A stretch of 64,000 nt of DNA from Xestospongia bergquistia. Its lineage: Eukaryota > Porifera > Demospongiae > Haplosclerida > Petrosiidae. The stretch is taken from contig OZ014424.1 of the NCBI GenBank assembly GCA_963965975.1, forward strand, positions 1,426,001 to 1,490,000. The letters are read 5' to 3'. Both the position numbers and the translations under genes were made by a program. The stretch's first letter is position 1. Each line of letters opens with the position of its first letter. Shown here piece after piece: positions 4,869-63,388 of this stretch. The notes under the pieces are model-generated. The model was given only the letters and a program-made list of their open reading frames with translations. It did no database searches and was not told the origin of the DNA.

Positions 4869-4916
4869 TCAAATGTTGATTGTCTCATAGCTTATGCTCA
4901 AGACAAGCTACAGTTT

Positions 4917-30617: not shown

Positions 30618-31736
30618 TTATTTTTGAGACCAAACTGGAATACTTGTTTGTTTTGGAGCAACAGACCTTTTACATACCTCATAATAGGAACCTGGGGACT
30701 CTTTTAGACATTCATCCTTCAGTTGAAGGCACAAAAAGCAAAATTCTTTTTTGCAACGATCGCATATCATCATTTTGCATCCCACTTGGGTGTGCTCTAC
30801 AACTAGACCACATGTAGGACAAGCACGACGATTAGGAACATCAACTTTATTTAACTTTATCATAGGTGCATCTCGGATTGAAGGTAGGTCAGGATGTATG
30901 CAGGCAGGATTTCCACATTTAACTGATGATGTAGTTGGGCCTGACCATTCCTTTAAACAGTTCCAGCAGAAATCCCAGCTGGAACCAATTTTGCTTGAAC
31001 AAACTGGACATGTGACTCGAAGATTGGTTAAATCTAACCTCTCAACAAAAGACCTACACCTTGGGCATTCTTTCAAATCACAATGCATTTTTGCTGCATT
31101 TTCTGACATCTTTGATTCTATATACCTCATTTCAGCATCAGTCAGTAGTGCAGCCTGACGAATGTCACTATAATCTAACACTTTATCACAGCCTTTTGTA
31201 CCGTCTAATATAGCTGGACAAGTAATAGCGAAGGAACGATCTTCGATCTTGCTGCGAACATAATCTGTCAGGCTTTGGGGATTAAATGCGTGCCCACACT
31301 TCATTTTGACGCGTTTTTCCGTTTCTTCAAGGTTATATGGGTCAATGGCATCGGGGTCATCAGTGAACTTCAATGATTTATTTCTGTAATCATGTCGTTT
31401 CTCAGGTTGAATTGGCGGTGGGATCGGAACTCGTTGAAGTGGACCGAGGTCCGCTCCTCCTCGACATCGGAGAACAACATTCACTGTCGAACCTTTCTGA
31501 ATGTTATAATCAAGAAGAGTGTATGCTTTTCCTGTACTTTCGTTGACATCTTCGAGCTGTTTGCCAGCAAAAAGTAGTCTCATATGCTGAGGTTGTATAC
31601 TTGACTTTGTGTCGTATATCTTTTGCTTCAGTTGTTGCACAGTTGTGTTTAGGAAGTCAGTTTCATTGTCTGCTACCTTGACAACGAAGAAGCTGTCTTC
31701 GACTCCAACTATGGCTACTGACCAATTTTTACTCAT
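30618..31736 (-). CDS. Ubiquitin-like + RBR (RING-IBR-RING) E3 ligase-like protein, intronless
   Basis: From ATG 31736 ([11 protein letters not shown]) the protein has 372 residues; an in-frame ATG at 31808 would add 24. Residues ~10-95 form a ubiquitin-like domain ending LRCRGG, close to ubiquitin's LRLRGG. A reduced RING1 follows (MKCGHAFNP, then TCPAI ... GCDKVL); the usual first Cys pair is not obvious. The IBR is CPRC ... CPVC ... CWNC ... CGNPAC. RING2 is [18 protein letters not shown] with CDRC and FCFLC; the Cys in VGCKMM matches the catalytic Cys of RBR ligases (GGCNHM in HHARI). RBR enzymes take ubiquitin from E2 as a thioester before transfer. The gene is divergent from the four-USP gene. 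The substrate is unknown. Confidence 0.85.
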
Positions 31737-31852
31737 GCTGCCGTTGCAGTGCGACACTCCAAACGTCTTAATAATCTTAGGTAGTAACGACAGGGCGTTT
31801 ATAGACATATATAGGCACGCCCCTCGGTGAAGCGAAATCAAACCAATAGAGA
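31737..31852. promoter_or_regulatory. Bidirectional promoter between Ubl-RBR E3-like gene and USP gene
   Basis: The two divergent ATGs are 116 bp apart (44 bp if the E3-like gene starts at 31808). Any promoter must be shared or overlapping. A tatatatagg-like string lies near 31806. An E3-like gene and a deubiquitinase gene in this arrangement suggests co-expression; this is inference. Confidence 0.6.
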
Positions 31853-34800
31853 ATGGCAGAGAGAGAAGGTAATTAACACCTTTTGTGCATTTTATAATGA
31901 ATTTATGATTTATTTGCTGATAGATTTTGTTAAAGAGAAACCTACGAGAAGTACAAGTACGAAAAATAAGGCATTATGTAGAAAAGAAAAGTGAGCCTTA
32001 GAATTATTTATGTTTTGAGGTTTTTGTTTCAAAGGTGAGGTTTAGCAGAAAGTACTCTCTTTGGTGCATAGATATAGTTAATGCTTATACATTAGTTAGT
32101 GCATATGATCGGACTTCCTAACTAAAGTATGGAATTGAGCAAACTATGTATGGTGAAATTGCCATAAATTATTTTTAGGTCTTAAGTGACTTTAATATAA
32201 GAACTTCTTAATTATGACAAATTTTTTGTATGAATTACAATTTTAAAGATAATAATTGCTGAGTACCAATTGTTTCATATATATTATCTTCATTTTCAAT
32301 ATTAATAATCATGGTCAGAGTCTTCTCTCAGTTTTAGAAATACATTTCACATTTTTATTTCATAGTTTCAAACCTCGTGTTTGTGGACTTACAAACCCTG
32401 ATTGTACTAAGTCTTGTTGTTTTATGAACTCAGTGTTCCAATGTTTGACACACACAACTCCTTTGAGAGAATACTTCTCTGTAAGTTTAAAATATATTGT
32501 TGTACAATGTAGCAGTCATTTCTGTCTGATACAGGAAGTTATTAATTGTGATGGCTTGCTTGGTAAATTGGCTGAAGCATTTGCCTTTTTTCTTTGTGAT
32601 ATGTGTAATGGCAGTGAAGAAGTTGTCCAGCCGGAACATTTGAAGGTCTCTTACCAGCTTTGTAATACTTAAGTAATAAAGTGCTTTATAACAGGATGTT
32701 ATACACCAGTATGCTCCAAGCATCAGTGAACATCGGCAAGGAGATGCACAAGAATTATTAACTGCTATGTTAACTGGTTTACGTGAGGATTTGAATGACA
32801 TTAAGACAAAGCCATATGTAAGAATGGAAGTGGATGAAATGGAGAAATCAGAACAGGTATGATAATGTCTCATTTAATAATGTAAGTGTCACTAAGTATG
32901 CCATGTAGTGTATCTTTCACATCAGTGAAATTTGACATTTCAACCAAGTAACTACTCTAAAATATCTATATATAGGGCTTTGATCCTAGTCTAATTATAT
33001 ATATATATATATATATATATCAGTATATATATAACATACATAACATTACATGCTGTGAGTAAATTTATGATAAGAACATTCCAACACTGTAAAAATTGAT
33101 TAGTTGATTTAACCAATGCATGGCTATACAGGTTGCATATGCAAAAAGTAAACTTAATACTATATTGATTACTAATGTATTATGAAATTAATGGTTATGT
33201 AGCTATATAAGCAGTAGTACATTAGTAATGAAGACAGTATTATGATTATTTTTTCAACAAAATAAATTTGTAATTGCAACCTGTATAACCGAGTAATGGT
33301 TAAATCAACTAATCAATTTTTACAGTGAACAATGACACATATCACTGTAGAAACTGATTGGTTGATTTAACCAATATATATATATATATATATATATATC
33401 ATAATACAGATTGCATCTATAACAAAATTATTTGTTGTAAACTGAAAGTAAACATAGTGCTGTTATGATTACTAATCTTATGGAATTGACTGTTTATAGC
33501 TTGTTGCTTTGTGTAAAAATAAAGTAAATATTTAGATAGTCAATCATAACAAAATAGTAATCAAAACAGCATTACGTTTACTTTCAGTTTGCTAGATGCA
33601 ACCTGTATAATGATATATTGGTCAAATCAACCAATTAGTTTTTATGGTGTGCAAGATGCACTTCCTCATAGTTAATTTTATGTATATATATATACATATA
33701 ATATAGATTGGTATATATTATAAAATTCATAACATTATAAGTTATGATAAGAGCATACTGACAGTGACACACACCCATATATATATAATATAGATCAGTA
33801 ATAGCATAATATACATAACATTATATGCTGTGAGTAAATTTACACTATTATACAAATTAAACAAACCAACAATGACACAAGACGTACTTCCTCATATAGT
33901 TTTGCTTATAGATTTGTATATAATATTATATACATAATATTATAGTATACACAACTTTATTAAATATTAACATCATATAACACACCATTAGCTATCTATG
34001 CAAGGGAGTGCCTACTTTTCACAACTACTAACATAATTTCCTCACAGTTGCTATGACAGAAATGTTTTGAGATAGTATCTCTCTATTCAAGGGAGTGCTT
34101 ACTTATTACTACTACTAACATAATTTCCTGACAGTAGCTATGACAGAAATTTTTAAGGTAGTAGCTTTGACTATTGACCAATAAAACAATTAATCAGTTA
34201 GATGTTATCAGTGTTATAGTTACATTAATCACTGTTCAAGCAACCAATGTTTTGTAACAGTATGTTATTTATCATGCAGCATCAACTTTTTATTTGAGAT
34301 TCTACCAATAAATTTTTTATGACAAAATTTTTCATTTTAGGAAATAGCTAATGAGTGGTGGAAAATGTATGAATTAAGAGACAAGTCATGCATTGTGGAT
34401 ATGTTCTATCTTCAAATAAAGATTGCTGTTACTTGTCCAAATTGTCATTTTGAAAGCAAAAGATATGAATTAGTCAGTCAGTTAACATTACCTATACCAA
34501 TGAAACCAGGAAGTGTGACATTATATGAGTGTTTAGATTTACTTACTTCAAAGAAGGAGTCGCAATCAATGGAGTGAGTATAAAATATAGGTGTTTTGAT
34601 TATATTTCTTTATGTAGCTATTGTGACAACTGTAATAAGGTTGGTCACACAATTAAACAGGAGAAAATTTGGAAAACTCCTTCTAATCTGATTATCTACC
34701 TTAAGCGTTTCAATGCTACTAGGTAAGTATTAGTCAATATAGTTGCATAATTGATCTTATTTATTTATATCTTATTCTGCATGTAGTTTTAAACTATATA

Positions 34801-37800
34801 AGAATGTAGAATTTCCTTTAAAGTAAGTTATATGACTCTTATATGCCACTCTGTGATCATCAAAACTTCTATAAATGTTTTTAGGTTGAGTCTAGATGAA
34901 TTTTGTGCTGATGAAACAAGGACCCCAACAAGATATGATCTTTATGCTGTAATTAATTATACTGGTACCCTTGACTTAGGTCACTGTGAGTTATTAATGA
35001 TTAGTCATGCATCATATACCTGTCAGTAACATTGACTTTGTTTTGTGTGGTCATACCAACATAAAGTTTAATCTACAATGTGAACATTACTGCATATTCT
35101 TTTAGACACAGCCTATGTCAAGTGTGATGGTAATTGGTATGAATGTGATGATACTTATTGTACTTCGTTGAGTGAGTCACAAATAGTGGTAAGTTTAACT
35201 CAAACCCATTTTCCTATTATATTATTTGCTTATTTCTATAGACTTCTAGAGCTTACATACTTTTCTATGAAATTGTGTCAGAATGTTCTTTGTGTCCCAG
35301 TAGAAGTGAAAGTTTGATGGATATTGAAGCTCTTACAAGTGGTCACTCTTATGTTCAACCTAAAAAGAAAAATGTAGCAAGTAATAAATTCAGCAGCTTC
35401 TTATATATAATATCAAATATTCTTACATTATTGACTTAATGTCTTTCTAACTAGAATCACTACCAGTAAGCATAGAGGATGATTCTACTCAAAAAAACTC
35501 TCGGTAACTAATACAATACACAGAGAGCTATATTAGCATAAATTTGATTTAATGAGAGATATTCACAACCAGTTCACACTGGATGTTGTAATTTAGCATC
35601 TCTGCCTCATTCAACCTAAAAAATAATTATTATTTTGTTAATATAGCAGTTGTGGGCAAGGTGTGTACTTGAACCAACAATCTTGCTTCAATTGCACTCA
35701 TTGTCATGCTTCTTGATTGAAAGACTTGTTCCATTTTAAGACAGCCTTTGATAGCCTATGCAAAATTGAGCTTAACAGTTTTGTTTATACATAGTCATGG
35801 TAATTTATTGCAATACCTTATACATATATAGCCAGCCAGTTCATTTATGGTTAGCAAGTTCATAAGCTTGGACTTCCAAGACTAGCAGTTGGTTAATGCT
35901 CTTTCTAACAACAACATCAAGATCATTAATAGCTAAAATTAGCTTGATGCTCAGCTTGCTTATAGTCAGATCCTGAATTAGTGTATACATTGTCACTTTA
36001 CTTTATAGCCATAATTCAAAAATTCATACAATTATTCAGAGTAGCAAAAATATTTTTTCACCAATTAAAAGAGCAAAAGGTTGGTTATAAGTGAAATCAA
36101 CAGCTTACTCATAAGCTATATATACAGAAATTATTCCAACAATGCAAATATTGCAGACAAATGTTGTAGTCTAGACAACAATACAGAATAACAAATAAAC
36201 TGTTGTCAAGACCACACCCCAAATGGTTTCGCTCACATAATTACAATTTAAAGTTACTCCTATCTTATTTAGAAGTTGAAATATATAGTAAGTTATGTAG
36301 GTCATGGCATTCTGTATCTTTAACATTTGCATTCACAGAAGTGTCCCTTAGCCTTCTCTCTATAGCCATTTTATAACCTCTGCCAAATTTACAATGTTTC
36401 AACTCATAAAGCAACATCTGCACTAATTATGACATTATAATATGATAGTCATGTTCATCCTCTTCATTATGTTAGATATACTCTTAAGTTTCTTCATCTT
36501 TTAGCTTTAAACCTTGTGTTCGTGGACTTAGAAACTTTGGTAATACTTGCTTCATTAACACAGTATTACAATGTTTAACACACACAACTCATTTAAGAGA
36601 ACACCTGTTTGTAAGTCTCAATTATATAGTTATTACAAATGCTAAGTTGTTTTAATCATTACATTATTATTATATTGTGCATTATAAATAACTTTTAAGA
36701 GCTCTCACTAGCTGAGTCAATAATAGATAGTACAAATTTATCTCTTGCATAGACAGACATGTATTTTAGTCAGAAAACTAATTTTGATAATTAGAATAAT
36801 AAATTAATTTGTCAAAACAGCCAATCAATTCTAACAATGATAAATAACTTACATATCTCTGTTATAGAAAGTTGTGCATAATTGTGACAATTCTCCTGGA
36901 AAATTAGCTGAAGCATTTACCATTTTCCTTTGGGACATGTGGAATGGTAGTGAACATGTTATTGAGCCAGAGTATCTGAAGGTATCCATACCAGCTTTGT
37001 GATACTTGAGTAATAAAATGTCTTCACTACAGAAAGTTTTGTTATACTATGCTCCGACCATCAGTGAACATCGGCAAGGAGATGCACAAGAATTATTAAC
37101 TTTTTTATTAACTGGTTTACATGAGGACTTGAATGACATTAAGACAAAGCCATATGTAAGAATGGAAGTGGATGAAATGGGGAAATCAGAACAGGTATGA
37201 TAATGTCACAATTAATAATGTAAATATCACTAAGTATGCCATGTAGTGTAACTTGCAATCGTCTAAGTGATGTCATGACATAATATTATTGTTTCAACCA
37301 AGTGACTACTCTAAAATGATCAATGGCTTTGATCCTAATAGATTTATTGTCATAGCTGTTATGAGTCCATGACATCCACACTCATATAGTACTGTTATTA
37401 TACTGTTCCCTATCCTTACCCCTAAATCATTCTTAACCCTAAACCATACAACATGTATAGTACTTGTACAATACCATGAACACAAATATGAATGTGGCTA
37501 TAGCATTTATTATGATTTTGAAATTAATTGTGGTTGGAATGTATATTCTATGCTGTAAAAATTGATTGGTTGATTTAAATAATACATGGTTATATAGGTT
37601 GTATATATAAAAAGTAAACGTAACACTGTTTAAATTACTAATGTACTATGAAATTGGCTGTTTATGTAGCTACATAAACACCCATGTTAGGAAAGTTTTT
37701 AAAGTAGTAGCTTTGGCTATTGAACAATAAAACAATCAATTAGTTATAAGAGAGTGACATGATGTCTATTAGGATAGTAACTGTTAAAAGTTCTATATTA

Positions 37801-38722
37801 TTATACTATTCAATGTTTCAAACAATCAATTTGTTATAATAGTGAATTATTTATCATGCAACATGAACTTTTCATATGACATGTCACCAATGAAATTATT
37901 ATCACATATTTATCACTTTAGGAAATAGCTAATGAGTGGTTAAAAATGTATGAATTAAGAGACAAGTCATGCATAGTGGATATGTTTTGTCTTCAAATGA
38001 AGATTGCTGTTACTTGTCCAAATTGTCATTTTGAAAGTAGAAGATATGAATTAGTCAGTCAGTTAACATTACCTATACCAATGGAAAAAGAAAGTGTGAC
38101 TTTACATGACTGCTTAAATTTACTTACTTCAAAGAAGGAGTCCCAATCAATGGAGTGAGTATAAAATATAGGTATTTTAATTCATATATTCTTTATATAT
38201 AGTTTTTGTGATAACTGTAATAACTTGGGTCACTCAATTAAACAGGAAAAAATCTGGAAAACGTCTTCTAATGTGATTATCTACTTTAAACGGTTCAATG
38301 TTACTGGGTAAGGAAGTTCTTTATATTATAAATTGGTCTCATTGATACTGCTATAGTTCTATGACAAAAAACTGTAAAAAAATATGTTTTCCATTAAAGT
38401 GAGTTTGATAAGCACACATTACAATTGATAAACATTTTTATTACATTTTTAGTGACTTAAGTCTTAATGAGTTTTGTGCTAATAAAACAAGGACTCCAAC
38501 AAGATATGATCTTTATGCTGTAATTAATCATTTTGGTAGCCTTCATGGTGGCCACTGTGAGTTATTGTTTTAGGTTGCCCCTTGAATTCTGAAAATTATT
38601 TGTTTATTTTAACAACCAATTTTGTAGCTTACATAGAATTACTATGGAATCTAAAATTCATGTGAATTACTCATTATAATATATGTATATACATACATAC
38701 ATACATGCATACATACATACAT

Positions 38723-38801
<79 letters not shown>

Positions 38802-39505
38802 GTGATTGCCTGATTTAACCATTATATAGTTATACAGATTGCATGCATGTAGCAAATTATATGATGCAAACTGAAAATAAATATTATACTGCTTACATTC
38901 CTAACATACTATCAGATTTACTGAACAATCAATCTGAAGAAATGTTTAGCTAATCTGATGGTATATTAGAAATGTTTAGTAAATCTGATAGTATGTTAGG
39001 AATGAAAACAGTATAATGTTTAGTTGTTTACTTTAAGTTTACACCAAGCAATTTCCAACATATAACCAGAATAACCATATTTAGGTTAAATCAACCAATC
39101 AATTTTTAGAGTGTATTGCTTGTAATTTGTTGGAATGATATACTATCACAAAGCAACAAATTATACAGTGCATGAGTAATTTACATGAGCTCTAGATTCC
39201 ATAGTAATCCACCCTTGGAAGCTACAAATTAGTTGTTAAAATAAAATATTAATTTTTACACTGTAAAAATTGATTAGTTCATTTAACCATTACTCAGTTA
39301 TACAGGTTGCAATTACAAATTTATTTTGTTGAAAAAATAATCATAATACTGTTTTCATTACTAATGTACTACTGCTTATATAGCTACATAACCATTAATT
39401 TCATAATACATTAGTAATCAATATAGTATTAAGTTTACTTTTGCATATGCAACCTGTATAACCATGCATTGGTTAAATCAACTAATCAATTTTTACAGTG
39501 TATAA

Positions 39506-39553
<48 letters not shown>

Positions 39554-42500
39554 GCACCAACAAATTGTGTTTGATTTTACTTAAATGTTGTGCATTATTT
39601 ATAAACATGTGAACAAAACTAACATTACTGTTCTTTTAGACACAGCCTATGTCAAGCACGATGGTAATTGGTATGAATGTGATGATACTTATTGTGCCTT
39701 GTTGAAGAGTAAGTCACAAATAGTGGTAAGTTTAACTCAAACACATTTTGCCATTATATTATTTGCTGATTTCTACAGAGTGCTAATGCTTACATACTTT
39801 TCTATGAAATTGTGACAGAACATTTGTGTTCTGGTAGAAACGAAAGTCAGATCGATTTTGAAAGTCACTCTCATGTTAAATGTCAGCAAGAATTAGTAGA
39901 AAGTAATAATTTTAGCATAATTATCTAGCTTCTTGGAATGCCCATTTATTCTTATATTTATGAATATCTCTTTCTACTCAACAAGTAGCATTACAGGTGG
40001 ATACAAAGGATGTGTCTACTCAGCATAAACACCGGTCGGTAACTTAATCTGTCTGATAATTCAACAACTATAACGATACAATTATTGTAACAGGGATTTA
40101 GAAGTTGGGTACACCGAAAGTAGTGAATTTGTGCCTTTGCCATTAAGATCACAGGACGTAACTCTGAAAAATATTTTGAGGTAGGCTTTTAATATTTAGC
40201 AATTTATAATCACAGTACACTATCAGGACTTAACTAGACAATAATATGAATGGCTTTTTTTGATATTAATTATAAATTAAGCAAGATGAATAATAGGTTT
40301 TGTAAAAATCAATCTCATTTGACTAATAGAGATGTTGTGTTTTTAAGAAAATAATGGTTTGCTTTCTTTTGCAGAGTAGGCATGAGGATATGTTGCTTTC
40401 ATGGCTTTTATGTTACTTAATTCGTTAAATGATGAGTTCATAGTTAATGTAAAAATATAGTGCTCTAAAGTGTTGCCTCATGCTTTTGTTTTGTTCCTCC
40501 TCAAAAACTTTTATTATTTTCAAAGTACATGCACCATCATCTAATTTTATATGTCTTTCAAATCAGTCCACTTACATGTAATTTTAACACACATCCTTCC
40601 TCTGATAATAAAAATACTTATTTTTATATTGTTTTAACCTGAAGAGTGGCTCCTAATATCTGTGGACTTCATGATAATAATTCGTCCATGAATTCAGTAT
40701 TGCAGTGTTTGACACACACATCTCCATTAAGAACATATTTCTTAGTATGTCTAACTATACAACATATCATTATACTATGTAATGACTACCATAGGAAGCT
40801 AACTCTGATCCTGGTGGTATAACTGCAAAATTAGCTAAAGAATTTGCCATATTTCTTCACAATATGTGGCTAGGGAGTGAAGTCATTATCAAACCTAAAA
40901 ATCTAAAAGTATCACTGATTACTTTGTAAGATTTCAATCAAAATATTTTTTGTACTAGAATGTTTTAACCTGGTGTGTTCCAAATGTCAGTGAACAATAT
41001 CATGAAGATGCACAAAAATTATTAACTGGTTTATTAACTGGTTTACATGAGGATTTGAATGACATTAAGACAAAGCCAGATGAAGTAATGGAAGTGGATG
41101 AGATGGGGAAATCAGAACAGGTATGATAATGTCTCAATTAATAATGTAAATATCAATAAATATCCTATGTAGTGTAACTTAAAATGAAGTAAGTCAAATT
41201 GACATTTCAACCAAGTGACTATAGGGCTTTGATCCTAACAGATTTATCATCATAGCAGCATACCAATATCATAACTTCCTCGTAGCTTAATTTTACGTGC
41301 GCACACACATATGTGTATATATATATGTAAAGAGAGAAAGAGAGAGAGCAATATATATTATAATATACATATACTGTCAGTAAAGTTATGATAAGAACAT
41401 ATTAACAATGTTGCACACACATACACACATATCACTGTAAAAATTGATTGGTTAATTTAAACAATATATCATTATACAGGTTGTATGTAGTGAAATTAGT
41501 TAATGTAAATTGAAAGTAAACAAAATATTTTGATTATTATTGTCCTATGGAACTGAGTGTTTGTAGCATCTTATTTTGTCTAAGAATTAAAATAAACTGT
41601 AATATTTAATAAATAGTCATGTCCATTGGAAAATAGTAATCAAAACAGTATTATATTTACTTTTTGTTTGCATCAAATAATTTCACTGCATACAACCTGT
41701 ATAATGATATATTGGTTAAATCAACCAATCAGTTTTACAGTGTCCATGCAAGATGTACTCCCTCATAGTTTTATTTTATGGACACACGCACCCATATATA
41801 GATCAGTAATAGCATAATATACATAACATTATATGCTGTGAGTAAATTTACGCTATTATACAAATTAAACAAACCAACAATGACACAAGATGTACTTCCT
41901 CATAGTATAGTTTTGCTTATAGATTTATATATAATATTATATACATAATATTATAGTATACACAACTTTATTAAATATTAACATCATATAACACACCATT
42001 AGCTATCTATGCAAGGGAGTGCTTACTTTTCACAACTACTAACATAATTTCCTCATAGTACAGAAATGCTTTGAGATAGTATCTCTCTATTCAAGGGAGT
42101 GCTTACTTATTACTACTACTAACATAACTTTCTGACAGTAGCTATGACAGAAATTTTTAAGGTAGTAGCTTTGACTATTGACCAATAAAACAATTAATCA
42201 GTTAGATGTTATCAGTGTTATAGTTACATTAATCACTGTTCAAGCAACCAATGTTTTGTAAAAGTATGTTATTTATCATGCAGCATCAACTTTTTATTTG
42301 AGATTCTACCAACAAATTTTTTATGACAAAGTTTTTCATTTTAGGAAATAGCTAATGAGTGGTGGAAAATGTATGAATTAAGAGACAAGTCATGCATTGT
42401 GGATATGTTCTATCTTCAAATGAAGATTGCTGTTACTTGTCCAAATTGTCATTTTGAAATTAGAAGATATGAATTAGTCAGTCAGTTAACATTACCTATA

Positions 42501-45375
42501 CCAATGGAAAAAGAAAATGTGACTTTACATGACTGCTTAAATTTACTTACTTCAAAGAAAGAGTCACAATCAATGGAGTGAGTATAAAATATAGGCGTTT
42601 GATTCCTACATTCTTTTAAATGTAGCTTTTGTGACAAATGTAGTAAATATGACTTTGGTCACACAATTAAACAGGAAAAAATTTGGAAAACTCCTTCTAA
42701 TTTGATTATTTACTTTGAGCGCATCAATACTACTGGGTAAACAAATTTGTTAACTCATATTATAAATCAATCTTACTCTAGTTTTATTCAAACAAAAACC
42801 CATAAAAAAGTGGATTTTCCATTAAAGTGAGTTTTCATAAACATGGTGTGATTGGCAAAATATAATAATAATTTTTAGTGACATGAGTCTTGATGAATTT
42901 TGTGCTGATGAAACAAAGATGCCAAGAAGATATGATCTTTATGCTGTAATTAATCATCTAGATAACTTTAATGCTGGCCACTGTGAGTTAATGTTTTTGG
43001 TTCTCCTTACAAGCAGATATTGATGACATGTTTGACTTTACTTAAATTTTGTGCATTATTTATAAACATGTGAACATAACTAACATTATTCTTATTTTAG
43101 ACACAGCCTATGTCAAGTGTGATAGTAACTGGTATGAATGTGATGGTACTGATTGTAATTTGTTGAATGAGTCACAAATAGTGGTAAGTTTAACTCAACT
43201 TTTTGCAATTATATTATTTGCTTATTTCTACAGACTGCTAATGCTTATGTACTTCTCTATGAAATTATCGCAAAGCCTGGTAAGAAATAGCAGCAATTAA
43301 GTAATATACTTAACATTATGATGTAATTATTCTTATTGACAAGTATCTCTACCCAACAAGGAGCACTACCAGTGAATATAAAGGATGAGTCTACTCAACA
43401 CAAACACCGGTAACTTAGTCTGATACCGTACTGAAATAAAGTAATGGTATAGAAATGTCACTAGTATTGTCATTCTTTCAAAAGACATCGTAATCCTAGG
43501 ATTTAAATTGTTTGATTTGTACTGCCATATAAGCTTATTAGTTTAAATATTTCATTTAATGTTGGCAGTGAAGTGGAAGGATGCATAAGATTAGAGAGCA
43601 AACTGGAAGTACTAAGTGATTGGGAGGTCAGTATAGTTTGTAATTTATTAATATTGAATTGTTCAAAGCAGAACATGCTATAGCAATCTGCTCAGAACTA
43701 TTATTGCCTCTCTCTGTGTGAGTCGAGGTATCTATGCTTTGTAATATGCTGTATTTTGCCAAATTCACTAAATTAAGTTTTATTTTCTTTTTGTCATTAA
43801 ATATGAAGGGTTGCTTCCAACATTTGTGGCCTTTACAATAATGATTGGTCAATGAATGCAGTATTGCAGTGTTTGACACACACATATGCAGTAAGAGAAT
43901 ACTTCTTTGTAAGTTTATAACTCCAATGTATGATGATTAGTCTCCTTTGTTATAGAAATGTTTTTGTAATTCTAGTTGTAAGTCTAAAGAACTTGTTCAA
44001 ACATTTGCCCATTTCCTTCAGAATATGTGGAACAGTAGTGAAGCTACAGTCCATACTGAAAAACTAAAAGTATGGTTGTAAATATACTTCAAAAGATTAG
44101 GTCTGTTTCAACTTAAAATGCTTTTTATTACTGTAGAATGTTTTGGATAGCTATGTTCCAAAAGGCTTCTTTCAAGGAGATGCACTAAAATTACTGACTT
44201 TTCTTTTAAACACTCTACATCTGGAAGTAAACAAAATTGCTCAAGATTGCTGTTTTAAAAAAAGTTGTAGTAAAATTTTATGACAATTTTCCATGTAGGT
44301 TAAAAATGAGTCATCATGCATAAAGGAAATATTTTATTGTCAATTGAGCACCAGTACTACTTGTCCTAATTGTGATTCTCAATATAAAAGGAAAATAAGT
44401 GATGAAGATTATCATTTGACATTGTCAGTACCGAGCAAGAAAGGTTATGTTACTTTAAAAGAACTTTTTCCTTCAGAGAAGACATCAGAGACAAAAAGGT
44501 TAAGTATCGAAACACATATACTTCATTTACAGTATTACATGTAGAAATTGCTCTAAATGTCACGAATCAGTGAAGTTATCAAGCAAGACCAATATTTGCA
44601 ATCCCTCACCTTGTCTGATAATCCATTTAAATTATAACCACACAACTAGGTATATACAATATTATTATTATATTTTATATACTTTGTATTGAGTATATTT
44701 CAAGCGCAACCTTAAACAAACTTAATATTTCATATCAACATATGCAGCATCCATGGGACTAACAATATCCCAATGGTGAAATTTCCTTTGACGTAAGTGA
44801 TCAAAACAATTTAAATGATGATTATAAGTAATAGCTGTATTGACAGTTAACACTTTTTACATGCATGCATGTATACGGACCAACCATAATATTTATTGGA
44901 GGGAAAAATTAAATCATATGCATGGTAATAACATTGTAATACATTGTGTATGTTTTTCTATAGTCTAAATTTAAATTAATTACGGGCTTCATGAATTGCA
45001 TATTTTTTAGCAATTTGAGTCTTGATGAGCTCTGTGCTAATCCCCAACTTACACCAAAATATGATCTTTATGCTGTAATCAACAAGAAGTATGAAGATAC
45101 TGTTCATTGTGAGTTCAAATTCTGGAATGTTTATACATTAATTTTTATCATGCAAATCCACACATTGTGCTTTTTTGTTATTTTTGATGTCATTGTAGAC
45201 ACTGCCTATATTAAGAACAGTGGCAAATGGTATTCATGTGATGATAGCATATGTAGTGAATTGAGTGCTTCAAAAGTTGTTGTAAGTCTAAATTTTATAA
45301 TTTTTGTGACCTTTTTACACTTATATATAGACCACTAATGCCTATATTCTCTTTTATCAAAGCAAGAGTGATTAA
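31853..45375 (+). CDS. USP-family deubiquitinase with four tandem catalytic domains
   Basis: Predicted 1485 residues. Exons: 31853-31868, 31924-31990, 32366-32480, 32535-32645, 32695-32856, 34341-34573, 34618-34722, 34787-34822, 34885-34985, 35106-35188, 35242-35380, 35455-35503; 36505-36610, 36868-36981, 37033-37194, 37922-38154, 38203-38307, 38357-38398, 38453-38556, 39640-39725, 39779-39902, 39986-40034, 40094-40180; 40645-40744, 40795-40908, 40959-41120, 42345-42577, 42626-42736, 42782-42826, 42879-42982, 43101-43183, 43234-43279, 43361-43409, 43569-43626, 43684-43727; 43809-43908, 43956-44069, 44137-44226, 44299-44498, 44545-44649, 44748-44792, 45011-45108, 45199-45281, 45331-45375. Every junction is phase-consistent and no stop separates the domains. 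Domains 1-2 keep the catalytic Cys and 3-4 lack it; all keep the His box and zinc-ligand pairs. Whether one transcript spans all four is unproven; separate genes remain possible. Confidence 0.75.
33085..33327. mobile_element. MITE copy A, CACTG...CAGTG termini
   Basis: The left end is cactgtaaaaattgattag and the right end its complement ctaatcaatttttacagtg, with inverted similarity extending about 60 bp inward (ttaaccaatgcatgg / aggttgcaattaca). It has no ORF and lies in a USP gene intron. Confidence 0.8.
33343..33649. mobile_element. MITE copy B, same family
   Basis: cactgtagaaactgattggt at the left and an imperfect complement (accaattagtttttatggtg) at the right, with an internal (AT)n expansion at 33376-33400. 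Confidence 0.75.
37553..37680. mobile_element. MITE copy C, left half only
   Basis: Begins ctgtaaaaattgattggttg and keeps the internal gtaaacgtaacactgttt-like part, but the right terminus is missing. Confidence 0.6.
38697..38802. repeat. Compound (ATAC)n-(AC)n-(AT)n microsatellite
   Basis: Simple repeat in the intron between domain 2 exons 38453-38556 and 39640-39725. The minus-strand Cys/Val ORF across it is an artefact. Confidence 0.95.
38801..39113. mobile_element. MITE copy D, decayed left end
   Basis: The left end is agtgattgcctgatttaacc next to an AT repeat; the right end is ggttaaatcaaccaatcaat then ttttagagtg. The internal part contains two near-identical inverted strings (aatctgatagtatgttagg). 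Confidence 0.6.
39259..39500. mobile_element. MITE copy E, same family, inverted relative to copy A
   Basis: Intact ends cactgtaaaaattgattag and ctaatcaatttttacagtg, flanked by TA on both sides (a possible TA target-site duplication). The interior is largely the reverse complement of copy A. Confidence 0.8.
41433..41742. mobile_element. MITE copy F, same family
   Basis: Ends cactgtaaaaattgattggt and accaatcagttttacagtg, with an internal segment matching copy B (gcatcttattttgtctaag). Confidence 0.75.
41803..42577. repeat. Recent duplicate of 33787-34573 (intron plus finger exon)
   Basis: The intron before the 233-bp exon of USP domain 3 and the exon itself are nearly identical to the corresponding part of domain 1, including non-coding strings such as gatcagtaatagcataatat and ctatgcaagggagtgc. 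The equivalent intron of domain 2 is clearly different. This indicates gene conversion or a recent local duplication. Confidence 0.85.
43809..45375 (+). other. USP domain 4 of the four-USP gene, catalytic Cys lost
   Basis: The Cys box [17 protein letters not shown] shares the two-residue shortening of domain 3. DAQE is DALK and GHY is VHY. Zinc ligands CPNC and CSKC remain. The third exon appears shortened (donor after CTG GAA at 44226). The ORF stops directly after [11 protein letters not shown]. Confidence 0.82.
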
Positions 45376-45879
45376 TACAAGTCTTAACAGCATTTGAATA
45401 GTTTTCTTTACAATGTGAAGCATTAAAAGATTTTCTTGTAATTGTTTTTTATATTTCTTTCAATAAGTTTTGTTTGTTAGTTTTGAGTGAGTGAATGAAT
45501 ACATTAGAATAAAAGGTTAATTTATGACTTTAATAATATTGATCAAAACTGATATCTGCATCATGTATCCATGTATATACATGCAACAGGAGGTATATAT
45601 TTACAAGTATATATGTGTTTAGCATGAATTAAAATAAAATTAACAACAACCATGCATTATAAATATAGATATGTTTATGCAAAGGCTGAATATAGTCAGC
45701 GTAACATATATATGTACATACAATTAGACCGTAAAGCCTCAGCACGTACACGTGATTTAAATAGATAATAAAAGGTATAATATACAGTCATGCCTGTATA
45801 TTTAACTTTACCGGAAGTGATCGCGTATATATATATCGCTAAACATACGCTAACTTGTGACAATCATCATTACATCCAA

Positions 45880-48800
45880 ATGGAAGATAGTCAGGTAAAG
45901 CTAGATTCTAAGTGTTCTGGAAGCATCGGAGAAAACAATGTAGAAGTTCAAAAGAAGAAAGAAGAGACATTTAGATCAGGTATACACAGTTACGTACATG
46001 GACGTGTGTGTGAGTGTGTGTGAGTGCAAGTGTGCATGTTACGGCCTGATTGAACCGTTTCTAAACGAGCCGACGGCTTAGAAAACAGGCTGGCCTGTTC
46101 TAAACTGACAACAACCAGTGCTTGAGTTTTCAATATTGCCAAAAATAGTACCTAAATAGCCAAGCTTTCAAATTAAATACAATGCAAAAGAGCAATTTAA
46201 AAGCGCTTCATAACAAGACACATAACTCTATACGGAAGTACATTTCCTGTCTCACTTCCCACCCCATCCAGGGCGTGACAGCACGTCACTTTAATAGTTC
46301 CAGCTAAACGTCATAGTTCGCATTACAACGTCATCAACAAGCAATTAAGTGCAAAAATGGTTTGTACAGAAATAATCATGGTAATGTGGCAGCTTGCTAA
46401 AGGTGCAACAAAAAGGACTGTGTATAGGCTGTGTCTCAGCTAAAGTGGATGGTTTTGTACAAGCTGCTTGCCATGTCGTCTAGGTTCCTGTGCTAACATG
46501 CAAATAGCTACCTCTAATGTTGTCTGTCCTGCAGTTGTCAGTTCAGCTATTCAAAATAATGCTCCTGTTGACTCCTCTCAAACATCTGCTGTCTCTGTCT
46601 CCAATGATGCTAGCTTACTTTTTGATGAACATGTTGTTGGATACTCTCCTGATATTTTGGTAGGACACCATTAACACTCTGGTTGCGAGGCTGCTGTCCA
46701 TTGTATTAAGAGAGTGTTTGAGTCCAAAGATACAGAGGCACTCTTATTGGTGGATACCTCCAATGCTTTTAATTCTTTAAATCAACAGGTTGCTCTTTGT
46801 AATATTCTCCATTTGTGCCCATCGTTGGGTAAAGTGCTTGTTCACACTATTGTAGCAATGTGAATCAGTTTATTGATGGCAACAGTCTCAAGTTCCATGA
46901 AGGAACCACACAAAGACCCTTTGGCAATCGCCATGTTTGCTATTGGTGTTATACCTCTGATTAAAGAGCTTGCCACCATCTCTCTAAGTTCAAATAAATC
47001 TGGTATGTTAATGATGCCACAGCTGGCACTTCTATTGCTGGTTTACATGACGGGTGGAGTGTTTATGAATATGAATATGGTCCTGCTTTCTGCTACTATC
47101 CTAACTTTCATAAGACTTGGCTATTTGTATGGTGCTCTGAATCATATCAAAAGAGATTTGCTATTCCTTCCCAGTTGCCTCAGAGGTGTATTATTAACCC
47201 TTGTTGTTCATCTGTTCTTCAATACTGAGCGTCTACTCAGGTGACAGCTCCTTTTGTATATTTAGTGTTCAATCAATCTGAGTCTTTTCCAATTGAGGTT
47301 CAGCTAAAACAACATGATTTAAAGAAGAAGCTGAAGAAAATTATTGCTCCCTGTTGTGCTCATTACCTTCATGATGCACTACCTACTGATTGTCAAGGTT
47401 TGATGGACATTGCCATGGAAAGGAGAGTCTCTTCCTGGTTATCAGCTTTGCCCTTTCAAAACATGGTGTTGATCTTTATAAAGAGGCCTTCCGGGACACA
47501 AATTGTGTTCACTATGGTTGGCATTAACCCCTCCTTCCTGTAAAGTGTGTATGTGGGAATTCATTTGCTATAGATGATGCCTTAAGTTGTCCTTTTGGTG
47601 GTCTTCCAACACAGAATCACAATGAAATTCATGACTTGACAGCCAAACTTAAAGAAGTTTTGTACTATTGAACCTTCTCTTCAGCCTTTATCAGGTGAAC
47701 ATTTTCTTAACCAATCAACTAAATATTGAAGATGGATTCAGATTAGTCAGTGGTTTCTGGAGTTGTGCTAGGTAGACATCATTTTTGGACATAAGGGTGT
47801 TTAATCCTCTTGCTCATTCCCAGTGCAGACTCTCTTACTGCTTGCTACAGGAAACGTGAACTAGAAAAGAAATGGTACTATGATCAAGAAGTTTGTGAGG
47901 TGGAACGTGGATGCTTTTCACCATTGGTTTTTTCCACAGGAGTAGGTGTGGGCCCAATTTCCAATACTGTCTATAAGAGAATGGCCTCTGTTATCTCATT
48001 CAAACATAGCAAACCCTATAGCATTGTAATGAACTGTATGAAAGTTAGACTATCATTGTCTCTGCTACAGTCTATTATAGTTTCTCTATGCTGCATCTCA
48101 TTGACTGCAGGTGTTGATCTTGCCCTCTCTAAGGGTTGGGTCACCACTGTTTAAATTCTTATTATTTTTTATTACCTCTTTTATTTACTGCTTTGTTGCT
48201 TAACCGTATAAATGTATAAATAACATCTACAGGTATTAGCTAAACTGTTAAATAGTGAATTGATCTTTTTTTAAATAAGGTGACTCCAGTAGTACTGTTA
48301 AAGCAACAGCAGATGAGAAACCTACTGAAGAAAGTATTAACAATACTGAAACTACAGGCACAGTACTAGAAGCCAACCAAAAGAACACCCCAGATTTACA
48401 AGGTGCTACAGGTATTAGTTAAATTATTAAATAGTTAATTGATCTTTTTTAATAAGGTGACTCCAGTAGTACTGTTGAAAGTAAAACAGAAGATGATAAG
48501 AAACCTTCTACTGAAGACATTACTAATAACACTGAAACTACAGGCACAGTACTACAAGGCAACCAAAACAACACCCCAGATTTACAAGGTGCTACAGGTA
48601 TTAATTAAATTATTAAAAAGTGAATTGATCTTTTTTCAATAAGGTGACTCCAGTAGTACTGTTGAGAGTAAAACAGAAGATGATAAGAAACCTTCTACCG
48701 AAGACATTACTAATAATATTGAAACTACAGGCACAGTACTAGAAGGCAACCAAAACAACACCCCAGATTTACAAGGTGCTACAGGTATTAGTTAAATTAT

Positions 48801-51800
48801 TAAATAGTTAATTGATCCTTTTTTAATAAGGTGACTCCAGTAGTACTGTTGAAAGTAAAACAGAAGATGATAAGAAACCTTCTACTGAAGACATTACTAA
48901 TAATACTGAAACTACAGGCACAGTACTAGAAAGCAACCAAAACAACACCCCAGATATACAAGGTGCTACAGGTATTAGCTAAATTATTAAATATTGAATT
49001 GATCTTTTTTCAATAAGATGACTCTAGTAGTACTGTTGAAAGTAAAACAGAAGATGATAAGAAACCTTCTACTGAAGACATTACTAATAATATTGAAACT
49101 ACAGGCACAGTACTAGAATCCAACCAAAAGAACACCCCAGATTTACAAGGTGCTACAGGTATTAGTTAAATTATTAAATAGTTAATTGATCTTTTTTAAT
49201 AAGGTGACTCCAGTAGTACTGTTGAAAGTAAAACAGAAGATGATAAGAAACCTTCTACTGAAGACATTACTAATAACACTGAAACTACAGGCACAGTACT
49301 AAAAGGCAACCAAAACAACACCCCAGATTTACAAGGTGCTACAGGTATTAGTTAAATTATTAAATAGTTAATTGATCTTTTTCAATAAGGTGACTCCAGT
49401 AGTACTGTTAAAACTACACCAAAAGATAATAAAAAACCTTTTACTAAGTACAGTACTAATAACATTGAAACTACAGGTACAGTGCTAGAAAGTCCCAACC
49501 CAAACCACTCTTCAGTTCCTTCCTGTAAACATAATGGTACAGGTATTTCAGTACATGTATGTACTTTGATTACTGTTTTTGTCTATTGGTGATATAAAAG
49601 ATCCTAGCAAAACAATATCAGATGATAATGAATTTCTTTCTTCTAAGGACAGTAATTCTAAAGCCTCAGGTACACTTTAACAATGTAACTACCACTATAC
49701 AACCATTCTTTTCAAATGAAGGTGTTACAAAGAGTGCAAAACAGAAAAAAGGAAATAAGTCTAATGGACCTCCTACCAAAGGTAGTAATGCAAAATGGTC
49801 AAATTCAAAGAAGGCACAAGAAGGAAGGAACCCTGCAGCCTCTAAAAAACTTGCAACAGGTAATATATATATAGACAGAACGTCCAACTTAGTATTAATC
49901 CTTTATTATCTAGTTCACTCTACCAAAGGTAGCAACAGCTCATTTACACTGTCTACAAAATCTAATTGCACAACTAAAGACCTTACAATAATTGCTTCAG
50001 AAGGTATGCATTTAGGAAATTTTAAATTTGAAAAACTTTCTTATAAAATCAACTTTAAAATATAAAAAAATTTAATAAATAGGCATAGGCAACAGTCTAT
50101 AGCTACCTTGTATAAGTTGTTTAGAAATTGTTTCCTCTCTGTCTTTTTCTATTTATTCTCCCTTTATATAAATAGCCTTAAAAACACCTATCTAGAAAAT
50201 CTAGTTTATTTTCGTACAATAACTTTTACAAATGTGTATATAATAAACTTTAAGAATATCACCATTTTGCTACATACTTTTAAAAGGTGGTAAAAGTGCT
50301 TTGCCAAAATCATTTAAACATGTTCACACTACAAAGAGGTAAGCTTTACCATACTGAGCAATTGGTACAAATTACTCTCTGAATGTTTCAGAATATCTCC
50401 CCATGTTTGTGGACTTAGAAACCTCGGTAATACTTGCTTTATGAACTCAGTATTGCAGTGTTTGACACACACAGCACAGTTGAGAGACTTTGTTTTGACT
50501 TTACCATTAGTATGTCCACATACAAATATGCATGTAATAACAATGAAACTTAGGGTAAAATTAAATACAAAAATCCTGATGGTATGTCTGGTGAAATGGT
50601 CAATTCATTTGCTGCTTTCTTCCAAGATATGTGGGAAAGTGATGAAATTATTATTGTGCCCTCCAAAGTAAAGGTAAGCTCATTTAATTTAAAATTATCT
50701 TATTCATTGATTCATTTTATTCCTACAACCACAGAATGTATTGTGCCATTATGCTTCAAGATTCAGTGGAGGTCATCAAGAAGATGCACAAGAATGTTTG
50801 ATTTTCTTTTTAAATGGCTTACACGAGGAAGTGAATGAAATTAGTAGAAAGCCATACGTCAAACTGGAAGTGAATGAAAATGGCAAATCTGAACAGGTTC
50901 TGTGTAGCATACACATGCATACATTCATAATTAATTAACTATTTTGACTCTCCCTCATATACTTTAGGAAATAGCTAATGAATGGTGGATAATGTATGAA
51001 TTAAGAGACAAGTCGTACATAGTGGATATGTTCTATCTTCAGACGAAGATAACTGTTACTTGTCCAAATTGTCCTTTTGAAAGCAAAAAATATGAATTAG
51101 TCAGTCAGTTAACATTACCCATACCAAAGAGGAGAGGCAGTGTCTCTTTGAGAGAATGCTTAGAACTTTTTACTTCAGAGAAGAAGTCAGAGTCAATAAA
51201 GTGAGTAAAAATAACGAAACATAACAGTATAGTAAATATATTTACCTTGTAGTCAATGTCAATATAGTATATATATATTTATATTGTAGTCAATGTGATG
51301 AATGTGAGGAGTTTGGATATGCAACTCGTAATGTCATTATCTGGAAGACTCCACCTAACATGATTATCCATTTGAAACGGTTCTACACAATTGGGTAAGC
51401 AATATCACAAAGAACTATACTGAATAGTAAACTTGATCATTACATTTATATAATGTTAATATTAATTTCTAATAGTCATAACCAATTTAAAGTTGACAAC
51501 ATGGTGGAATTTCCATTAACGTATGTTTCCTGAAATAAATATTATATGATTCTAAATTTACCACTAGCTATTTATAATTTAGTGACTTGAACCTTGACGA
51601 CTTTTGTGCTGATAAAACAAGGACTCCAACAAGATATGATCTTTATGCTGTAATTAATCATTCTGGTTTCCTTCAGGCTGGCCACTGTGAGTTAACAATA
51701 TCTTACATTGAAGGAAGAATGGTGTAATTGTTCATGAAAATTACTGATAGGGATTAGCTCAATATACAATAATACGATATGTAATAAAGCTGTTTGGAAC

Positions 51801-53271
51801 AGAAATGATTATACAATTGATTGTTATATAAAAGTTAAGAAACTAAAGATTTATTCATTAATCTGTACATAGACACAGCATATATCAAGCACAACTCCAA
51901 GTGGTATTTATGTGATGATACGTCTTGCAGAGAGACGAATGATAATGTCATGGTATGTTAGAAGCATGTGAATTCATGTGAATACGTTCTTTGCACCATA
52001 TGTAGACTTCCAAGGCCTATGTTCTCTTTTATAATTCAAGAGAAATATATAAAACACCTGGAGGACAAGAAAAATCAGACTTCAGCTGTATTAATGGCAG
52101 CATTAAAGTTCCACAAAATCTAAATTCTATAGTAGAAGGTAGCCTATCTCAAGATATTAACTCATTGCCTCCTAAAGAAAATGCCACAGGTATATTATTT
52201 ATACTAGCACATTACTTTAACACATTTGTTTAATTTGTTAAGATGCTTCAATTAATGTAAATAATATAACACCTGGTCAAGAAGTTGCTGACAAATCTGA
52301 ATTTCATTCTACTAGTGACAGCAATACCAATAATACCTTAGAGATTGTCCTAGAAAATAACCACTCTCCTGATGTTAACAAACCATCTTCTCCAGAAGAT
52401 GTCACAGGTATTTATGGATGTTTTCCACCACCACAGTATTATATCATATTTTGTCAAGGTGGCTCCGATAAAATCACTGAAACACAGCGAAATATGCCTG
52501 AATTATCCTCAACTGAGGACAGCAATACTGACACAACAGTATATGCGCTAGAAGATAACTCCCATCCAAATGATAACACACCATCCTTTTCAGAAAGTGT
52601 CATAGGTATTCATATTTTTGCTACCACATTATCTTAGAATCTACTTTGCTAACTATATAAGGTGATTCTAATGATGCAAGTCAAAAAACACCAGAAATCA
52701 CTAAAACATCATCTGATGATAGTATTAAAACATCTGAGGTTATCCCAGAGAGTAGCCACTCTTCAGAAAATTCTAGTGGTTATGTGTGGAAATTTCTAAA
52801 GTGGCCAGTAAATTATATCAAAAACCTTTTTGATATAAATGACTCCAATGAAACGCAAGAAATGTCTGATGTTGCTACACTACCCACTGAAGAAAATGCA
52901 ACAAGTATTTTATGGCTGTTTTCACTACCTTAGTTACCACATGATTTTTTGAAGGTGACCCAAATTACTCCAGTGGCACTACCACACAAATGTCTAAATT
53001 ATCTTCTAAGGAGCATCAAGACAGCAATAATGAAAAAGCAAAGTTAGAAATGGAAGAAAACCACACTTCAGAAGTTAATGCATCATCTTCTCCAGGTATA
53101 TATAAATGTATATTATAGCGCTATAGCGTATATTTTTGAAGATGACTCCTATGAAGAAGAAATGGAAATACCTTCTTCTGAGTGCAGTAATGCTGAAAAA
53201 TTATTAGATATTGTGCCAAATGATAATCATTCTAATTCACAATACAATTCTATAGGTATATAATATTATAC

Positions 53272-57792: not shown

Positions 57793-58431
57793 TTATGTAT
57801 GGATAGTAACAGTGGCTTTAATGTAGTTGATAATGTAATTCTCAAAATCATTAAAGCGGTACACATCAAGGTACAAATCACTTTTAGTTACATCAACAAT
57901 GGGATTGTGTTTGTCGTACACCACAGTCAACAGGTGACCATCATCAATTGGGGTTCGGCAAACTGCCACTTTTTCAAGAGGTTTGAATGTCATACGAAAG
58001 TATCGTGGCCAATGTGGATTTGTAGCTAATTCTTTATCCAAAGTTGGTGAATGTTGACTCAATACACGACCAGGCTTTCCTTCGTAACCAATATATGGTC
58101 CCAAAGTAGTATATTCAGTTAAATCACATAGCTGAATGCCTATAGCCCATTCATCACTGGCCACTGTAAACAAAATTGGATCTTTATGAATTTGTGTTCC
58201 AGTGTATTCCAGTCCAACCTCTAGTGATATTTCAAGATCTTCAACTGAAATATATTCTCCTTGTTTGTCAGCAAGCTTATATCGAAAGATACGTTCAAAA
58301 TCAGTCCTGTCACGTCGAATAAAGAGATGCATGTCATCTTGAAGTACATGCTCGCAGTTCCATTGAACATGGCTACTTTTTTCAAGGTATTTAGCTGACA
58401 TAAAACGGTCAAACAGCACTTGTCTAGCCAT
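57793..58431 (-). CDS. Hypothetical 212-residue protein, copy 1
   Basis: An intact single-exon frame from ATG 58431 (MARQVLFDRFMSAKYLEKSS) to the stop at 57793. I recognise no family. It is mixed alpha/beta in character with many aromatic and charged residues, no signal peptide and no membrane segment. Internal landmarks are WNCEHVLQDDMHLFIRRDR, VASDEWAIGIQL, GPYIGYEGKPG, NPHWPRYFRMTF and VTKSDLYLDVYRF. It is nearly identical to copies 2 and 3. Sequence just upstream of the ATG (attaacag before aATGG) looks like a splice acceptor, so a 5' UTR intron is likely. A TATA box lies about 360 bp upstream. It is head-to-head with copy 2. Confidence 0.75.
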   Translation of the reverse strand: MARQVLFDRFMSAKYLEKSSHVQWNCEHVLQDDMHLFIRRDRTDFERIFRYKLADKQGEYISVEDLEISLEVGLEYTGTQIHKDPILFTVASDEWAIGIQLCDLTEYTTLGPYIGYEGKPGRVLSQHSPTLDKELATNPHWPRYFRMTFKPLEKVAVCRTPIDDGHLLTVVYDKHNPIVDVTKSDLYLDVYRFNDFENYIINYIKATVTIHT

Positions 58432-58786
58432 TCTGTTAATGTAAATCGAAACAGTTTAAATCAATAAAGACCTGAAATATAATAATATGATACAACTTTA
58501 TTAATGCAGACAGAATTTTAATCTGTAATGCATAATTTTATCTAGCTATGCAATTTATATATGAAGATAGCAATAACTTAACAAGATAGCAATAACTTTA
58601 TTATATATAGTACACTAGGTGTATTAAGCATATTATTCTAGCTCTTACTAATACACACTATTTTTCTCAACACTACTAGTTGGCCTTACTTGAACAGTGG
58701 TAGTTGATAGACTACTATTACAGTTGTCTGAACTTAAACTTTGAAATCAGCACTTTCTGTAGCTACTTTCAACAGTGTCAGAGCAG

Positions 58787-60432: not shown

Positions 60433-60773
60433 GCTGCTCTGACACTGTTGAAAGTAGCTACAGAAAGTGCTGATTTCAAAGTTTGAGTTCAGACAACTGT
60501 AATAGTAGTCTATCAACTACCACTGTTCAAGTAAGGCCAACTAGTAGTGCTGACAAAAATAGTGTGTATTAGTAAGAGCTAGAATAATATGCTTAATACA
60601 CCTAATGTACTACATATAATAAATTAAGTTATTGCTATCTTCATATATAAAATGCATAGCTAGATAAAATTATGCATTACAGATTAAAATTCTGTCTGCA
60701 TTAATAAAGCTGTATCACATTATTATATTTCAGGTCTTTATTGATTTAAACTGTTTCAATTTACATTAACAGA

Positions 60774-61415
60774 ATGGCTAGACAAGTGCTGTTTGATCGT
60801 TTTATGTCAGCTAAATACCTTGAAAAAAGTAGCCATGTTCAATGGAACTGCGAGCATGTACTCCAAGATGACATGCATCTCTTTATTCGACGTGACAGGA
60901 CTGATTTTGAACGTATCTTTCGATATAAGCTTGCTGACAAACAAGGAGAATATGTTTCAGTTGAAGATCTTGAAATATCACTAGAGGTTGGACTGGAATA
61001 CACTGGAACACAAATTCATAAAGATCCAATTTTGTTTACAGTGGCCAGTGACGATTGGGCTATAGGCATTCAGCTACGTGATTTAACTGAATATACTACT
61101 TTGGGACCATATATTGGTTACGAAGGAAAACCTGGTCGTGTATTGAGTCAACATTCACCAACTTTGGATAAAGAATTAGCTACAAATCCACATTGGCCAC
61201 GATACTTTCGTATGACATTCAAACCTCTTGAAAAAGTGGCAGTTTGCCGAACCCCAATTGATGATGGTCACCTGTTGACTGTGGTGTACGACAAACACAA
61301 TCCCATTGTTGATGTAACTAAAAGCGATTTGTACCTTGATGTGTACCGCTTTAATGATTTTGAGAATTACATTATCAACTACATTAAAGCCACTGTTACT
61401 ATCCAAACATGTTAA
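60774..61415 (+). CDS. Hypothetical 213-residue protein, copy 2
   Basis: An intact frame, differing from copy 1 at only a few residues (for example EYVSVE for EYISVE, SDDWAIG for SDEWAIG, QLRDL for QLCDL, and the C-terminal TIQTC). The same landmarks are present, no family is recognised, and no transmembrane segment or signal peptide is visible. Its 5' flank has a TATA box and a probable 5' UTR acceptor (cattaacag) directly before the ATG. The 3' flank is shared with copy 1. Preservation of the frame in three copies beside decayed relics suggests selection or very recent duplication. Confidence 0.78.
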   Translation: MARQVLFDRFMSAKYLEKSSHVQWNCEHVLQDDMHLFIRRDRTDFERIFRYKLADKQGEYVSVEDLEISLEVGLEYTGTQIHKDPILFTVASDDWAIGIQLRDLTEYTTLGPYIGYEGKPGRVLSQHSPTLDKELATNPHWPRYFRMTFKPLEKVAVCRTPIDDGHLLTVVYDKHNPIVDVTKSDLYLDVYRFNDFENYIINYIKATVTIQTC

Positions 61416-63052: not shown

Positions 63053-63388
63053 CTGCTCTGACACTGTTGAAAGTAGCTACAGAAAGTGCTGATTTCAAAG
63101 TTTGAGTTCAGACAACTGTAATAGTAGTCTATCAACTACCACTGTTCAAGTAAGGCCAACTAGTAGTGTTGAGAAAAATAGTGTGTATTAGTAAGAGCTA
63201 GAATAATATGCTTAATACACCTAGTGTACTATATATAATAAATTAAGTTATTGCTATCTTCATAAAATTCATAGCTAGATAAAATTATGCATTACACATT
63301 AAAATTCTGTCTGCATTAATAAAGTTGTATCATATTATTATATTTCAGGTCTTTATTGATTTAAACTGTTTCGATTTACACTAACAGA

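Follow-up and report, generated by a model that had tools for sequence, protein, structure and literature searches.

A lineage-specific array of canonical and predicted pseudo-enzyme USP domains occurs twice in a sponge genome, at both loci head-to-head with a ubiquitin-RBR ligase gene

Do USP (peptidase C19) domains that follow one another on the same strand of a sponge genome belong to one deubiquitinase gene, or to several genes that happen to be neighbors? The question is raised by a locus of Xestospongia bergquistia that lies in a window of 64,000 nucleotides (C14:1426001-1490000), the whole stretch of DNA analyzed here. Coordinates are those of the window, on the + strand unless stated otherwise, and our searches of the sponge's own genome covered 146 Mb on 21 contigs. 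A sequence-only reading had joined about 44 exons with matching phases, from 31853 to 45375, into a single frame of 1485 residues carrying four catalytic USP domains. When we rebuilt the exons by hand, 44 of them could indeed be joined on the + strand over this interval, their phases agreeing and no stop interrupting the frame; the length came out differently, at 4,470 nt or 1,489 amino acids plus the stop. The model opens with N1, the first coding exon with the ATG (31853-31868, phase 0 to 1, donor 5.6 bits), followed by N2 (31924-31990, phase 1 to 2, acceptor 6.2 bits, donor 8.3 bits).

The succession of four USP domains (32366-45375, +) is borne out. D1 (32366-35380), D2 (36505-39902), D3 (40645-43279) and the more divergent D4 (43809-45375) score 185.4, 188.2, 161.6 and 124.1 bits against Pfam UCH, all far above the cut-off of 23.9 bits, and each is made of nine exons with identical phases at the eight internal introns. 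Scores and common exon plan together indicate that these domains are real, far beyond chance. The repeated plan described earlier holds in outline: exons of 162 and 233 nt are present in D1, D2 and D3, while D4 has exons of 90 and 200 nt, and in all four domains the His box is split one base into the Tyr codon, as had been noticed. A purpose-written spliced aligner recovered the nine-exon plan with identical phases in a fifth domain of the window (D5) and in a paralogue on contig C2 (C2-C); these two further USPs also have the 162-nt and 233-nt exons.

The solved sequences closest to D2 are those of USP15 (3e-68) and USP4 (5e-63), and USP15, USP4 and USP11 share with the array both the box motifs and the Cys-x-x-Cys pairs. 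According to PMC4624187, USP4, USP15 and USP11 combine a DUSP domain and a pair of UBLs with a single catalytic domain in two parts, whereas the array has several USP domains in a row and no Pfam match to DUSP or UBL beside D1-D4. A USP4/15 orthologue is present in this genome on C9 (about 2884695-2887744). In a tree of 15 rows, D1-D3 come together (100/100) with D5 beside them (83/81), and seven other USPs, including the USP4/15 orthologue, fall on one side (92/91). The other two C2 domains, C2-A and C2-B, are long-branched, A standing loosely with the array and B being unplaced (50/84). None of the best 120 of 1,738 public matches to the chain was a multi-USP relative, coverage not exceeding 23% nor identity 43%, and among the 120 listed of 197 matches to a single domain there was no near-identical protein, the best listed identity being 43%.

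The four domains are not equal in their catalytic residues. We judged the Cys, His and Asp boxes from an alignment of D1-D4. D2 is the sole domain of the four with a full canonical catalytic set. D1 retains its catalytic Cys and an intact His box, with three residues inserted ahead of the Cys in the Cys box, and its activity appears doubtful. In D3 the Cys box reads NNSSMNS, the catalytic Cys being replaced by Ser, and in D4 it reads NDWSMNA, with Trp in the same place; the HYTAY His box and the first Asp behind it are retained throughout D1-D4. The Cys boxes of D3 and D4 are both 6 nt shorter, a shared deficit that probably goes back to a single loss. The earlier description of four catalytic domains must therefore be given up: at least two of the four (D3 and D4) lack the catalytic Cys, D1 has an altered Cys box and only D2 is canonical. 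Judging from their residues, D3 and D4 are predicted USP-fold pseudo-enzymes.

We estimated dN/dS with a codon bootstrap (1000 bootstraps) for eight pairs of domains, and all eight values were below 1, among them 0.47 for D1-D2, 0.55 (0.40-0.77) for D2-D3 and 0.33 (0.19-0.48) for D4 and domain C of the C2 array. A value of 1 was reached in 0 of 1000 bootstraps for seven of the pairs and in 0.4% for D1-D3. By simulation, a neutral frame of 337 codons taken from D5 and given 0.2 base draws per site (a draw may bring back the original base) acquires 8.5 stops on average. Taken together, dN/dS below 1 and the stops expected under neutrality make D4 look like a kept pseudo-enzyme rather than a dead copy. 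For D3 a caveat applies. Exon 4 is 92-96% identical among D1-D3, and two tracts of 154 and 300 nt, lying in intron 3 and reaching the start of exon 4, are 98% identical between D1 (33895-34355) and D3 (41906-42359); we interpret them as traces of gene conversion or of unequal exchange that took place recently within the array. The intact frame of D3 may thus be due in part only to recent copying.

The genome holds a second array. A search with D2 returned 44 matches, the best of which beyond the present cluster lies at C2:15794789-15795034, with more around it. These belong to an array at C2:15788014-15795756 with three USP domains, A, B and C, one of them intact. C2-A (about 15787986-15790655) has Ser for the catalytic Cys and has lost the His; C2-B (about 15791756-15793802, start unsure) has, by hand alignment, Ser for Cys and Gln for His; C2-C (15794231-15795756) is canonical. 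C2-C ends in a stop directly behind the fold (FYEKES*), as does D4 (FYQSKSD*). Exon 9 of B, a linker exon duplicated in tandem (copies of 141 and 123 nt) and C can be read in a single frame across introns of 60, 61 and 43 nt, and on this path no ATG in frame lies between B and C. With its short introns, its duplicated frame-keeping exons and no ATG in frame, the B-to-C stretch is joinable and supports a multi-USP reading. An in-phase path from A to B was not found by hand.

The fifth domain of the window, D5 (50392-52050, +), is canonical by spliced alignment and probably sits in a separate downstream gene, since D4 ends in a stop. Six tandem copies of an exon with its intron, spaced at 186-187 nt (48322-49490), lie in what is presumably the N-terminal part of that gene, and by our own reading similar exons also occur behind the D5 catalytic domain. 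Between the presumed first exon of the D5 gene and these repeats lie broken frames (46444-47300) that we take, from a motif, to be reverse-transcriptase-like; the piece at 46864-47241 has no Pfam match. Further downstream, a unit whose open frame spans about 220 amino acids occurs three times in two orientations (57795-58581, 60624-61410 and 63262-64000); its copies are 98-99% identical, and the two that were scanned have no Pfam match. Near the other end of the window are two related Death/ankyrin genes (3770-8510 and 11298-13353). Frame 4869-8507 contains 28 stretches that match Pfam Ank. Of two Death-like frames, the one scanned (11298-11645) has a Pfam Death domain.

How much does matching phase say about whether D1-D4 form one gene? 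As a chance control, the domain ends were kept fixed, the DNA between domains was shuffled with its dinucleotides preserved, and the best in-frame splice path was sought. Shuffled DNA did as well as the real best path in 35 of 100 cases between D1 and D2, 34 of 100 between D2 and D3 and 5 of 100 between D3 and D4; between B and C of the C2 array the figure was 7 of 100. A control that ran from D4 to D5, over 5 kb and past the D4 stop, likewise yielded an open path, which 10 of 10 shuffles equalled. The best-scoring path differed from the linker series of the model in each of the four gaps (the three here and B to C). Since shuffled inter-domain DNA yields equal paths, phase consistency says little; by this control the in-phase linking does not exceed chance, and we reject it as proof of a single gene.

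The splice sites between domains, ranked against 48 internal introns, vary in quality. The donors of exon 9 are weak (0.2 bits in D1 and 1.1 bits in D2, 4th percentile), with that of C2-B falling within 0.2-1.1 bits and that of C2-A at -0.6 bits. The sites that join the first linker to exon 1 of D2 are good (6.5 and 8.8 bits), and weak acceptors are found at the linkers behind D2 (L2a, -0.7 bits) and D3 (L3a, -1.7 bits) and at exon 1 of D4 (0.7 bits).

D1, D2 and D3 are each followed, past an intron of 74-83 nt, by an exon of 49 nt that we call alpha, with copies L1 (35455-35503), L2a (39986-40034) and L3a (43361-43409). The three copies are 59-82% identical, the highest value being that of L3a to L2a, while the preceding introns are 44-54% identical and the following 150 nt 37-44%. 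Alpha is thus more conserved than both its flanks, an island of constraint. At the peptide level, shuffles were as good in 3 of 1000 cases for L1-L2a and in 0 of 1000 for both L1-L3a and L2a-L3a. An alpha-like exon is also found between domains A and B on C2, with an acceptor of 5.6 bits and a donor of 10.2 bits that carries no stop. It was equalled in 1 of 200 shuffled gaps and 0 of 27 decoy stretches; for five other stretches in the same test, 45 to 182 of 200 shuffles were as good. From this comparison, the C2 exon is likely to be the counterpart of alpha.

Other linker exons are possible and weak: L2b (40094-40180), open and in phase 2 to 2, and L3b (43569-43626) with L3c (43684-43727), proposed from their phases. 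L3b has no significant similarity to other linkers, and a direct in-phase joining of L3a to D4 is also possible. Several resemblances were set aside. L2b and L3b looked like C2 linker exons by eye, and 479 and 951 of 1000 shuffles, respectively, were as good for their matches to linker b2; the same held for N2 and L1 (763 of 1000). The exon ahead of D5 resembles L1 and L3a weakly (22 and 95 of 1000 shuffles as good).

We place at about evenly balanced the reading of D1-D4 as one gene, presumably giving one transcript, that mixes enzyme and pseudo-enzyme domains. Its in-frame linkers are present, the shuffle control is not passed and alpha is conserved. The multi-USP gene that the sequence-only reading had proposed is the likelier reading because alpha is conserved relative to its flanks and has a likely counterpart in C2, and not on the ground then offered, phase matching. 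A possible but rather unlikely alternative is a tandem of separate single-domain USP genes, in which alpha is the last exon, D2, D3 and D4 each have start exons of their own, and matching phases reflect common exon ancestry and AT-rich DNA. The alpha donor CG|GTAA of D1 and D3 doubles as a stop codon (CGG TAA), so that alpha might be the last exon in these two places; D3 exon 9 would likewise stop three codons beyond its donor. The abundance of in-phase paths in shuffled DNA and the apparent status of D5, sister of D1-D3, as a gene of its own also fit this arrangement, as does an AATAAA 26 nt past L3a. Such signals, which also occur directly behind the exon 9 donor of D1 and 3' of the D4 stop (45508-45513), are too common in this region to decide on gene boundaries. 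The C2 alpha-like exon speaks against separate genes: with good splice sites and a donor free of a stop, it makes alpha look internal rather than terminal. So does C2-C, which has no in-frame ATG after B on the path given. A scan from each alpha exon to the next domain found 1, 0 and 0 start exons ahead of D2, D3 and D4 whose donor was adequate and whose phase fitted, a count with little power as it allows a single leader exon and would miss the two-exon start of D1 itself.

The junction between D2 and D3 is doubtful. Relative to L3a, the donor of L2a is disturbed by a 4-nt tandem duplication of CGGT at about 40033-40040, which decides the D2-D3 frame. Because of it the in-frame donor (CCG|GTCGGT) scores 1.7 bits, and the stronger donor 4 nt downstream (CCGGTCG|GTAACT, 6.5 bits) breaks the frame. 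The chain may hence be broken or mixed, D1-D2 forming a two-domain protein from which the duplication cut off D3-D4, now expressed apart or decaying. We consider this unlikely: the altered and 6-nt shorter Cys box common to D3 and D4 would suit it, but both domains are open in all exons and dN/dS is below 1 in the five bootstrapped pairs that involve D3 or D4. That the array was made by collapsed or duplicated repeats in the assembly is hardly credible. The tracts of 98% identity in D1 and D3 could suggest such an artefact, yet the aligned domains share 43-74% of their amino acids, each has introns of its own, and a second array exists with the same neighbor.

That neighbor is a single-exon gene on the - strand (30618-31736), head-to-head with the array, for a ubiquitin-RBR (Parkin-like) E3 ligase with Pfam matches to ubiquitin and IBR and none to a RING family. 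Its ATG (31736) and that of the array (31853) are 116 nt apart, or 44 nt if an in-frame upstream Met at 31808 is used, and the interval (31737-31852) is a putative shared bidirectional promoter. A paralogue (C2:15785837-15786961) stands head-to-head with the C2 array, its ATG at 15786961 lying 71 nt from the array ATG at 15787033. Among 23 matches to the ligase in the genome, these two alone are close, with 100 and 64% identity across the RBR and at least most of the remaining protein, and both adjoin the two USP arrays. A third, on C10, is distant (34%, query 54-392) and has no USP match nearby among the genome matches listed.

Relatives of the ligase include proteins of Amphimedon queenslandica (59-60% identity), one ENA relative (90%) and Ephydatia, and invariant Cys columns run through 59 aligned rows. 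The ubiquitin-like part ends in LRCRGG|A, and its Gly-Gly is kept in 69 of the 70 rows with residues there, in an alignment of 72 rows made of the query and 71 of 120 listed matches. In an AlphaFold model of the ligase (pLDDT 89.5), the sole stretch of three or more residues below pLDDT 50 is 92-97, which surrounds the Gly-Gly. Foldseek places Parkin best by E-value with a TM of only 0.2-0.3, which indicates a domain-wise match, and ubiquitin has a TMt of about 0.9. Parkin and the ligase both have a ubiquitin-like domain and then an RBR; unlike that of Parkin, the ubiquitin-like part of the ligase is close to ubiquitin itself and ends in Gly-Gly. Both ligase copies look like a cleavable ubiquitin fusion, and a USP that may cut after the Gly-Gly, encoded beside such a ligase, would make an obvious pair. 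What we state firmly is that a lineage-specific USP array, with one canonical enzyme and pseudo-enzymes, is present at two loci of this genome and has a divergently oriented ubiquitin-RBR ligase gene beside it at both.

In the mechanism that we propose, the promoter common to the array and the divergent ligase gene would start a multi-USP transcript and co-regulate the two. The product would be a series of USP folds on one chain: D2 with the full catalytic set, D1 of doubtful activity, and D3 and D4 as pseudo-enzymes kept in frame. D3 and D4 would probably act as ubiquitin-binding modules, adding avidity for ubiquitin chains and positioning the active domain, and a plausible substrate would be the neighboring ligase, with its ubiquitin-like part ending in a conserved Gly-Gly. 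At its most complete this would be a writer-eraser cassette: from one promoter, a ligase in one direction and, in the other, a multi-USP protein with one working protease and natural Cys-to-Ser or Cys-to-Trp ubiquitin traps, D2 clipping the ubiquitin-like part of the ligase after the Gly-Gly and so setting ligase activity. We offer this full version as a speculation that is quite improbable as a whole.

Precedents come from other protease families. The precedent of tandem USPs in fly and mammal that had been invoked does not appear to hold for Drosophila DUSP31 and human USP31: their "two USP catalytic domains" are named alongside Cys- and His-boxes (PMC5642568), and we take them to be two halves of one domain rather than tandem copies. 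Carboxypeptidase D and the polyserases do carry homologous protease domains in tandem on one chain, as in the array though in other families, and the third domain of carboxypeptidase D is predicted to be inactive (PMC5683605, PMC1435904). Among the papers listed by our literature search, in one part of which "USP" mostly meant universal stress protein, there was no tandem multi-USP protein, nor any array of USPs or pairing of a ligase with a USP from a sponge. If the chain is real, the architecture would be new for a deubiquitinase, with dead copies that stand beside a live one and may serve as natural substrate traps. The head-to-head pairing of a ligase with a USP array at two loci also provides a directly testable ligase/protease pair.
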